Below are positions 45,124 to 46,479 of a stretch of 64,000 nucleotides of DNA, piece after piece. A program made the position numbers and the translations under genes. Source of the DNA: Kribbella italica (GTDB lineage: Bacteria; Actinomycetota; Actinomycetes; Propionibacteriales; Kribbellaceae); NCBI RefSeq assembly GCF_014205135.1, contig NZ_JACHMY010000001.1, positions 4,898,001 through 4,962,000 on the forward strand, read 5' to 3'. Numbering within the stretch: the stretch's first letter is position 1; each line of letters starts with the position of its first letter. The notes under the pieces are model-generated. The model was given only the letters and a program-made list of their open reading frames with translations. It was not told the DNA's origin and made no database searches.

Positions 45124-45416
45124 CAGGTGTCGAGCTCCTTGCGTTCGGTCAGCCGCCGGATGTCGGCGAGCGTCAGGTCTGCGGTGACCGCGACATCGCG
45201 CGGCACCGACGGGTGGGAGCTGAGCGTACGCAGGCCCTGCTCCGCCGCCGCGACCGCCTTCTCGAGGGTCCGGACCTCCTGCACCAGCGCCTTGGTCTCG
45301 CCGGTCAGCTCGATCACGGACCGCTCCGCGAGGGTGGCCCGGCGGTACGACGACCAGGCGAACCAGGCGGTTCCGACGAGCAGGATCAGTACCGGCAGTC
45401 CGAGCCTGAGAACCAT
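45123..45416 (-). CDS. Small single-pass membrane protein with coiled coil
   Basis: This 97-residue protein of unknown family has an N-terminal helix (LGLPVLILLVGTAWFAW) followed by about 50 residues of heptad-like sequence (LTGETKALVQEVRTLEKAVAAAEQG) and a helical tail (ADLTLADIRRLTERKELDT). It is translationally coupled to the SPFH gene, so the two products probably interact at the membrane. The starting region faces a divergent promoter for the small-RNA candidate at 45.44 kb. Confidence 0.7.
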   Translation of the reverse strand: MVLRLGLPVLILLVGTAWFAWSSYRRATLAERSVIELTGETKALVQEVRTLEKAVAAAEQGLRTLSSHPSVPRDVAVTADLTLADIRRLTERKELDT

Positions 45417-45440
45417 GCCTTATGGGATCACGAAAACTGG

Positions 45441-45469
45441 TTGAACGGTGCTCTTTCGCGACGTAGGTT
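45441..45469 (+). promoter_or_regulatory. Strong vegetative-type promoter upstream of a small RNA/short ORF
   Basis: TTGAAC (45441-45446) and TAGGTT (45464-45469) are 17 bases apart. No long plus-strand gene follows until 46480, and tetR lies between on the other strand, so the promoter must serve the short transcript described next. Confidence 0.55.
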
Positions 45470-45475
45470 CTCAGT

Positions 45476-45681
45476 ACACGCGAAGGGAGGTGGTCCTTGC
45501 ATGATGTGCAACCGGACTCGTGAGGTGGCGGCGGTCTGACCGTCAACCACTAGCAGCACGTGGGCTATGTGGTCAGGCAATTCAACGCCTGCCACCGGAT
45601 CCGCAGGCAGCCAGGAAAGTCCGCCTGGCCCATCGCTCGGCCACCCGGTCGTGTCGCTGGAAGTGTCTGCGGGTCTTTTTT
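45476..45681 (+). ncRNA. Candidate structured small RNA
   Basis: Between a good promoter and a run of six T (45676-45681) lies about 200 bases of structure-prone sequence. A 9-bp stem with one bulged T joins 45569-45578 to 45587-45595 around an 8-base loop. CAGGC/GCCTG (45604-45608 with 45623-45627) forms another, and ACCCG/CGGGT (45643-45647 with 45670-45674) precedes the T-run as a weak terminator. The RNA overlaps the end of tetR on the opposite strand. A 12-codon ORF with a good ribosome site sits at its 5' end. I do not recognise a known family. Confidence 0.4.
45501..45539 (+). CDS. Possible 12-residue leader peptide MMCNRTREVAAV
   Basis: An ATG at 45501 follows AAGGGAGG (45483-45490) by 10 bases and opens a 12-codon frame ending in TGA. 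The promoter lies just upstream and a strong RNA hairpin follows, as in attenuators and dual-function small RNAs, but no larger gene lies downstream on this strand. Very short ORFs arise by chance, so this rests on the combined promoter/ribosome-site/hairpin layout. Confidence 0.35.
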   Translation: MMCNRTREVAAV

Positions 45682-46384
45682 ATTCTGCCGGCGGGCAGTC
45701 GAGCCCCAGCGCTTCGCCGATCTCCCGCAGCTGCGCGTCGAAGTACGCGCCCGCGTCGTCCAGGGCCCAGTGCAGCTGGCCGAAGACCTCCATGCAGATC
45801 AGGCCGTAGAGCCTGGTCCAGTAGGTCAGCGACAGGTAGACCGCGCCCGGGGGCATCCCGTCGAAGAACTCCGACTTCTGGCACAGCTGCTCGACCAGCT
45901 CGGGGCCGAGCAGCTCCTCGGACGGACTGGGGAACGGCTGCTGCCGGTAGACCTTCGCGACCAGGTCCTTGAACACGGCCCCGAACCGCATCGCCGCCTG
46001 ATGGCTCGGCGTCAGCTCGTGGTCGTCGGCGCCCGGGTTGGGGACCGGCGCTCCGAACAGCAGCCCGAACTCGGCCGGGTGCTCGAGCGCCCAGGTCCGG
46101 AGTCCGCCCGCGACCAGGAACAGCTGCTCGCCCAGGTCGCCGCTCGTGTCGCGTTCGGCGATCAGGTACGCCGTCAGTTCGTCGTACAGGTCGGCGACGA
46201 CGGCGGAGATCAGGTCCTCGTGGCCGGCGAAGTAGCGGTAGAGGGCCGGCGCGCTGATGCCGAGCTCACGCGCGACCGCGCGCAGGCCGACCGCGCTCGC
46301 GCCGCCGGCGACCAGGAGCTTGCGGGCCGCCGCCTTGATCTCGGCGACCGTCGCGGCGCGCCGGCGATCCCGTCTCGTGTCCAC
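45680..46384 (-). CDS. TetR family transcriptional regulator
   Basis: This 234-residue repressor has the helix-turn-helix VGLRAVARELGISAPALYRYFAGHEDLISAVV and a TetR_C-type helical domain with FGLLFGAPVPNP, as seen in regulators of MMPL-type exporters. GTG 46384 follows GGAAGG by 5 bases. It is divergent from an MMPL transporter gene across a 33-bp perfect palindrome and is almost certainly that gene's repressor. Its 3' end overlaps the T-run of the small-RNA candidate. Confidence 0.9.
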   Translation of the reverse strand: MDTRRDRRRAATVAEIKAAARKLLVAGGASAVGLRAVARELGISAPALYRYFAGHEDLISAVVADLYDELTAYLIAERDTSGDLGEQLFLVAGGLRTWALEHPAEFGLLFGAPVPNPGADDHELTPSHQAAMRFGAVFKDLVAKVYRQQPFPSPSEELLGPELVEQLCQKSEFFDGMPPGAVYLSLTYWTRLYGLICMEVFGQLHWALDDAGAYFDAQLREIGEALGLDCPPAE

Positions 46385-46405
46385 ACTCACCTTCCTTGAC
46401 AACAC

Positions 46406-46438
46406 GGTGAACACCGTTAACAGTTAACGGTGTTCACC
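46406..46438. promoter_or_regulatory. 33-bp perfect palindromic TetR operator
   Basis: GGTGAACACCGTTAAC, a central A, then GTTAACGGTGTTCACC: 16-bp arms with no mismatch. It lies between the divergent tetR and MMPL genes and is long enough for two dimers of the adjacent TetR. Confidence 0.85.
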
Positions 46439-46479
46439 ATCGCGACCACTGTTCAATGTACGCCCTCGGGAGGGGTCCT

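Follow-up and report, generated by a model that had tools for sequence, protein, structure and literature searches.

Rfam family RF02471 (Ms_IGR-5, 'Actinobacteria sRNA') is listed as a non-coding sRNA with a consensus structure that begins with a helix 1. Ms_IGR-5 was reportedly named as an M. smegmatis sRNA by Li et al. in 2013 (RNA 19:74). In S. avermitilis the RNA is found among sRNA transcription units for which start points and end points were linked (PMC8780764). For S. lividans it carries the mark of RNA-seq validation (PMC8079986), and in M. smegmatis IGR-5 overlaps ncMSMEG15794c according to a passage of PMC10454040. Ribosome reads are present on the RNA in M. abscessus and M. smegmatis (PMC4974804), with the authors' own warning that RNP contamination can yield ribosome reads on sRNAs. 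No function, other name or independent report of RF02471 was found in the open-licence literature. The candidate name scr4389 appears among Rfam sRNAs in an extract of PMC8388888 that does not tie it to the RF02471 RNA, and the terms sRNA and Rv0812 are absent from an extract of PMC9094748, which concerns translation in M. tuberculosis. As far as this literature shows (the 2013 naming paper and supplementary files lie outside its scope), the family is known and the open reading frame (ORF), the 16S rRNA match and the pseudoknot given below are apparently undescribed, as no description of them was found.

Several other systems resemble the RNA in part. The dual-function sRNAs SgrS/SgrT and SR1 are also small RNAs with an embedded ORF (as presented in a section of PMC11133741), but in the RF02471 peptide the residues that are free to vary are not conserved. 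In leader-peptide attenuators (trp or cysteine type) the translation of a tiny ORF competes with downstream stems; RF02471, in contrast, has no regulated gene downstream and its peptides, examined by eye, have no enrichment of codons for one amino acid. The tmRNA is likewise a structured RNA with a short ORF and a pseudoknot, but the RF02471 ORF has its own Shine-Dalgarno (SD) sequence and start codon, and tmRNA was rejected as an identity since ARAGORN reported 0 tRNA or tmRNA genes in 45400-45750. Synthesis of a pRNA releases RNA polymerase from 6S RNA. A possible likeness to 6S RNA and to mycobacterial Ms1 (for Ms1, a passage of PMC10454040) is that of an RNA occupying a core machine, with the difference that the RF02471 RNA would act on the ribosome, by mRNA mimicry. 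Finally, cryo-EM in S. aureus has found an SD-anti-SD helix extended towards the start codon and accommodated by the ribosome (part of PMC13009471); the RF02471 match differs in being 15-16 nt long, in lying in a free-standing sRNA of another phylum and in being known from its sequence.

Family membership, occurrence and genomic setting

The window is the whole stretch of 64,000 nucleotides of Kribbella italica DNA that was analysed. Searching all 64 kb of it with cmscan gave RF02471 as the sole match at the gathering threshold. The match lies at 45476-45648 with 48.3 bits (E 8.6e-8 over 64 kb), and a local search extended it to 45682 (49.7 bits, E 2e-10 on the local stretch). These covariance-model scores exceed the gathering cut-off of 45 bits and make the window RNA a member of the family, with which it has sequence, length and helices P3 and P4 in common. 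Where the Rfam entry has helix 1, however, the window RNA has an ORF, predicted helices P0 and P1 and a predicted pseudoknot. The RNA is about 205 bases long, its ends being inferred as in Table 1, and has a fold z-score of -2.63, 1 of 200 shuffled sequences being equally stable.

The family occurs once in the window's genome and once per genome in 38/38 genomes of the genus (own genome included). It was present in 36 of 39 genomes sampled from relatives, again with the own genome included, and a draw across the phylum under stricter filters gave matches at E ≤0.001 in 70/396 genomes, 35 of the 70 being above the cut-off. A strict sequence motif of the 5' part was found in 174 of 296 genomes of the class, with 0 for the reversed control among the matches listed. 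The motif was absent from the other 122/296, which include all listed genomes of the families f100 and f106 (small genomes) and f11; this suggests that RF02471 has been lost from some lineages or has diverged too far for the motif. Scanning named genomes with a pattern returned at least 120 loci, and the genera among the matches listed include Streptomyces, Mycobacterium, Nocardia, Gordonia, Amycolatopsis, Micromonospora, Geodermatophilus, Parafrankia, Cellulomonas, Brachybacterium and Nocardioides.

The ORF was examined in 181 loci: 60 found with Rfam, the window itself and 120 found with the pattern (L063-L182). L001 and L032 were left out as duplicates of the window locus. The search pattern imposes GGAGGTGRTYY and GRCNYGTGAGGTGRC on the 120 loci, so constancy of the core motifs there is partly by construction, and the Rfam-found rows alone served for a recount of the fold and the 16S match. 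The ORF counts are pooled over the Rfam-found and pattern-found loci; the start codon, the frame and the stop are left free by the pattern. Redundancy filters reduced the 181 loci to 158 and then to 82 diverse members, which make up alignment A1. Three loci (L150, L172 and L177) stop short of the loop, and counts for Pk and P0 use 155 of the 158.

Table 1. Coordinates of the RNA, its parts and its neighbour in the window.
Feature	Coordinates	Strand	Basis
Predicted promoter: -35-like TTGAAC (45441-45446), 17-nt spacer, -10 TAGGTT (45464-45469)	45441-45469	+	-10 conservation
RNA, member of RF02471 (Ms_IGR-5)	45476-45682	+	ends inferred: 5' from -10, 3' from P3 and T6
P0, 5' strand CACG, pairs with 45519-45522	45477-45480	+	covariation
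SD block GAAGGGAGGTGGTCC, 15-nt contiguous complement (with G-U) to the 16S rRNA 3' tail	45482-45496	+	sequence complementarity
12-codon ORF MMCNRTREVAAV, ATG to TGA	45501-45539	+	frame, start and stop kept in 180/181 loci
Pk, 5' strand CGGACT inside the ORF, pairs with 45618-45623	45513-45518	+	covariation alignment
P0, 3' strand CGTG inside the ORF	45519-45522	+	covariation, RNAalifold
P1, 5' strand GGTGGCGGCG inside the ORF, pairs with 45586-45596 (T45590 bulged)	45524-45533	+	covariation, RNAalifold, energy fold
P2, 5' strand, holds the stop codon, pairs with 45570-45578	45534-45542	+	covariation, energy fold
P2, 3' strand	45570-45578	+	covariation, energy fold
7-nt bulge AAUUCAA between P2 and P1 (AAUnCCA in many relatives; A1 columns 205-211)	45579-45585	+	
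P1, 3' strand CGCCTGCCACC	45586-45596	+	covariation, energy fold
P3, 5' strand, pairs with 45664-45676	45597-45609	+	covariation, RNAalifold
P4 hairpin, loop AAAGTCCG (45616-45623) with Pk 3' strand AGTCCG	45610-45629	+	covariation, energy fold
P3, 3' strand, then T6; terminator-like	45664-45681	+	covariation
tetR, convergent neighbour	45680-46414	-	

A -10 element of the form TAnnnT stands directly before a conserved CAC in 81 of the 82 diverse relatives, compared with 6% of shuffled upstream sequences, and sits 7-8 nt before the CAC in 78 of the 82. The -35 element is weak, with 2-5 of 6 matches to TTGACA among these members. The conserved position of the -10 element places the 5' end of the RNA at helix P0. 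Generic scans of 45300-45800 for sigma-70 promoters and for terminators gave no hit, so the predicted promoter and terminator rest on conservation and on the T6 run at 45676-45681. The promoter motifs, ribosome site, ORF, hairpin, T6 run and 263-base gap described by the first-pass annotation are all present where it had placed them.

The RNA lies in a 263-bp gap between a minus-strand ORF starting at 45416 and tetR, whose final few bases are all that it overlaps; the next large plus-strand gene is at 46456. From crude ORF calls the neighbours of RF02471 differ between lineages. According to Pfam, at one representative locus each, the window has SPFH/Band_7 and TetR, Mycobacterium has Aminotran_4 and a THAP4-like heme-binding protein, Streptomyces has a PAS protein and PNPOx, and Amycolatopsis has Fpg-like and GNAT proteins. 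Of 170 loci, 109 have their first downstream gene on the opposite strand and 61 have it on the same strand, where it belongs to many families. A TetR cluster adjoins the RNA in 20/20 parsed loci of the window's genus and in 0/150 other loci with a called downstream gene.

The tiny ORF, the competing stems and the terminator-like P3 could be read as an attenuator or leader, or as an antisense regulator of the convergent neighbour (tetR here) that acts through read-through of the terminator; the frequent opposite-strand neighbour and the constant presence of tetR in the genus agree with this. This reading is nevertheless highly improbable, given the varied same-strand neighbours, the lack of a TetR neighbour outside the genus and the mapping of the RNA as an sRNA transcription unit in S. 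avermitilis (PMC8780764). As the neighbours vary with lineage, RF02471 is not a leader, and the leader or attenuator was rejected for want of a conserved same-strand gene downstream. The first-pass annotation had itself argued that the RNA does not lead a visible operon, and this holds, there being no downstream gene to lead. Its suggestion of an antisense regulator of the tetR 3' end fails as a role for the family, since the variable neighbours mean that control of tetR cannot be general. A link between the RNA and tetR within the genus is possible because the TetR-family gene converges on the RNA in every parsed locus there, and a genus-specific side effect on tetR is possible. The RF02471 RNA is free-standing.

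Covariation and a proposed pseudoknotted fold

In the 82-member alignment, P0 pairs 5'-CACG with CGUG, Pk pairs GGAC and its flanks with the GUCC loop of P4, and P1 pairs GGUGRCUGCC of the ORF with GGCAGYCACC. Paired cells amount to 89.4% against 79.9% in shuffled alignments, cells with double changes number 345 against 121, and 0 of 500 shuffles reach the observed value on any of five measures; the shuffles do not correct for the relatedness of the members. Sliding the partners by 1-3 columns leaves at most 43.2% paired. When the 31 rows not fetched by motif were taken by themselves, every helix exceeded all 300 shuffles in both pairing and double changes. Compensatory changes include CTTC:GAAG, CGTA:TACG and CGCA:TGCG in P0, GGTGACCATC:GATGGTCACC in P1 and, identified by eye, GGAT with ATCC (L004) and TCGACC with GGTCGA (L059) in Pk.

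Agreement is not uniform over the fold. By columns, P2 is only 73.4% paired and the outermost pair of Pk only 48.1%, and one pair of P0 is broken in 14/155 loci (CACA with CGTG). No P3 was found in L062 and L068, both of which are outside A1. RNAalifold, run unguided, returns P0, P1 and P3 and does not return P2. The single-sequence energy fold of the window holds P1, P2, P3 and P4 and prefers a hairpin at the start codon to Pk. This is the bulged hairpin of the first-pass annotation, which stands in the single-sequence fold as GGUCC...GGACU around the start codon and falls in the comparison: it was rejected as it has no covariation, with no double change in the 82 relatives.

The Rfam structure line already contains helices P3 and P4 and lacks P0, P1 and the pseudoknot. 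Helix 1 of Rfam pairs the SD sequence (gGugGu) with the 3' half of the ORF (gCugCc). In the 82 members this helix is 91.9% pairable with 0 double changes and no excess over shuffles, and it was rejected for lack of covariation. This is a failure of the published structure across the whole family, and not of membership by homology. The covariation shows support for a pseudoknotted fold, predicted from the alignments, that replaces helix 1 and pairs most of codon 5 through the stop codon in Pk, P0, P1 and P2, with the SD sequence, the start codon and codons 2-4 contained in the loop closed by P0. The 7-nt bulge between P2 and P1 may be a binding site for protein or RNA.

Conservation of the 12-codon ORF

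An in-frame ATG (88 loci), TTG (74) or GTG (18) is found 7-11 nt after GGAGGTG (45486-45492 in the window) in 180 of the 181 loci, and at 8-10 nt in nearly all of them. In the interval of 7-11 nt, the two remaining frames have a start triplet in 5 loci and in 0 loci. The ORF of these 180 loci has 12 codons in 175, 13 in three and 11 in two, and ends in TAG (137), TAA (23) or TGA (20). A stop occurs within nine codons in 0, 125 and 178 of the 180 loci for frames 0, 1 and 2 respectively. The distance from the start codon to a conserved GAG codon is 21 nt in 176/180 loci and 18 or 24 nt in the other four; unlike this, the distance from the SD sequence to the GAG is variable (26, 29, 30, 31 or 32 nt). 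The sole exception is L062, with no ATG, GTG or TTG in frame. The 5' part of L062 retains the SD block, P0 in the changed form CGCA:TGCG and the stop codon.

The amino acids behave differently in the two halves of the ORF. Codons 2-4 are A/U-rich at seven of their nine positions, and 13 of 64 single-nucleotide differences within them are synonymous where a fraction of 0.18 is expected, i.e. there is no synonymous excess. Peptide residues 6-10 are near-constant (T, R or C, E, V, A or T). This constancy is explained by nucleotide constraint because the stretch is paired in Pk, P0 and P1.

A classical dual-function sRNA, combining a base-pairing RNA with a functional 12-residue peptide ending in TREVAxx, would account for the near-constant residues. 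It is quite unlikely, as the nucleotide constraint on that stretch suffices and the codons free of pairing behave as described. A functional peptide was therefore rejected, and with it goes, in its usual sense, the dual function offered by the first-pass annotation, which had proposed a check for conservation of the peptide with synonymous changes. Its view of a small RNA with a real tiny ORF is borne out by membership of RF02471 and by the frame kept in 180/181 loci; its own condition for refutation, a lack of conserved hairpins or peptide in close relatives, does not refute it, as the stems and the frame are kept and the free residues of the peptide are not. Across these loci the ORF is shown to be conserved as translation, as far as the pattern of substitutions can tell, and not as a peptide: start, frame and stop appear selected and the free amino acids unconstrained. 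Both this conservation and the ribosome reads in two mycobacteria (PMC4974804) speak for the predicted translation of the ORF.

The opposite possibility is that the ORF is an accident of a structural RNA whose SD block serves only for pairing with 16S rRNA or for binding a protein, translation being irrelevant. The structure does account for the half of the ORF that is constant, a usual start is missing from L062, and ribosome reads on non-coding RNAs can be artefacts (PMC4974804). We give an accident only a small probability, however: an in-frame start is present in all loci but one using three different start codons, length changes inside the ORF occur only by three, three different stops are always in place, and the frame used is free of stops where the other frames are rich in them.

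The 16S rRNA match and a proposed translational switch

The 16S tail GGATCACCTCCTTTCT occurs three times in the window's genome, and the copy that was checked ends an Rfam SSU match. Among the 61 Rfam-found loci, window included, 37 have a contiguous complement to the tail of 16 nt, 23 have one of 15 nt and a single locus has one of 12 nt. The 120 pattern-found loci gave 16 nt in 105, 15 nt in 14 and 12 nt in one, partly by construction. The 20 distinct Rfam-found blocks depart from the perfect complement 48 times. Wobble preserves pairing in 42 of these cases, and of the six that abolish it, five fall at the last base of the 16S tail. The predicted SD-16S hybrids of 158 loci have energies between -22.7 and -30.5 kcal/mol. 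For comparison, the sequences upstream of 1026 predicted neighbouring genes have a longest 16S complement of mostly 4-8 nt; three have 15-16 nt and may overlap the RF02471 RNA. No second site with a 16S complement of at least 12 nt was found in the 64-kb window.

Genome-wide, the 13-base motif AGGGAGGTGRTYY is not enriched (2 matches, 2 in the reversed control), and GRRRGGAGGTGRTYY has 7 matches in the 8.9-Mb genome against 2 in the reversed control. Three of the seven are the complement of the 16S tails, one is the window RNA and three are inside open frames of at least 321 codons with gene-like codon bias. With these counts, the case for 16S pairing rests on conservation and not on rarity.

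Judged by sequence, the RNA has what a 6S-like decoy would need as an mRNA mimic, namely a complement of the 16S tail and a suitably spaced start codon. Such a decoy, a ribosomal counterpart of 6S RNA, would capture the 30S subunit through essentially the whole 16S tail and so buffer or slow initiation; it would be released only when translation of the 12-codon, partly arbitrary ORF unzips the RNA's own pseudoknot, as pRNA synthesis does on 6S RNA. The maintained 15-16-nt complement (60/61 Rfam-found loci) with its mostly wobble-only changes, the strength of the predicted hybrids, the very short ORF with a non-conserved free part, the TTG starts in 74/180 loci and the ribosome reads in two mycobacteria (PMC4974804) are consistent with a decoy. 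However, it would require copy numbers near those of 30S subunits and does not alone account for the placing of codons 5-12 in covarying helices. We consider it unlikely, if somewhat less so than a functional peptide or an accidental ORF.

The best explanation, we infer, is an RNA that switches between being folded and being translated, because the reading frame is conserved and so is the fold with which it competes. With slightly better than even confidence we propose that RF02471 is an actinobacterial sRNA, stand-alone and single-copy, whose own translation gates it through 30S capture, with fold and translation mutually exclusive. The 30S subunit would be captured at the open SD sequence and start codon, and the elongating ribosome would have to melt Pk, P0, P1 and P2 before reaching the stop codon. 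As the ribosome must melt these helices to finish, the RNA would alternate between two states, one folded and untranslated, the other open and occupied by a ribosome. The balance between the states would be set by the initiation capacity of the cell and would decide whether the sRNA acts, the peptide being a by-product. The sRNA might act by way of strands released from P1, P2 and the P4 loop, or else by way of its stability or processing. One idea is that the freed P1 strand AGYCACC, which resembles the anti-SD sequence UCACC, could pair with the RNA's own SD sequence.

For the family, P0, P1 and Pk revise the 5' half of the published RF02471 consensus structure. A selected 12-codon ORF, a near-full 16S match and a fold that locks the ORF turn an orphan sRNA, with a range covering Streptomyces, mycobacteria, relatives of Frankia and many other actinobacteria, into a testable hypothesis of translation sensing or ribosome buffering.
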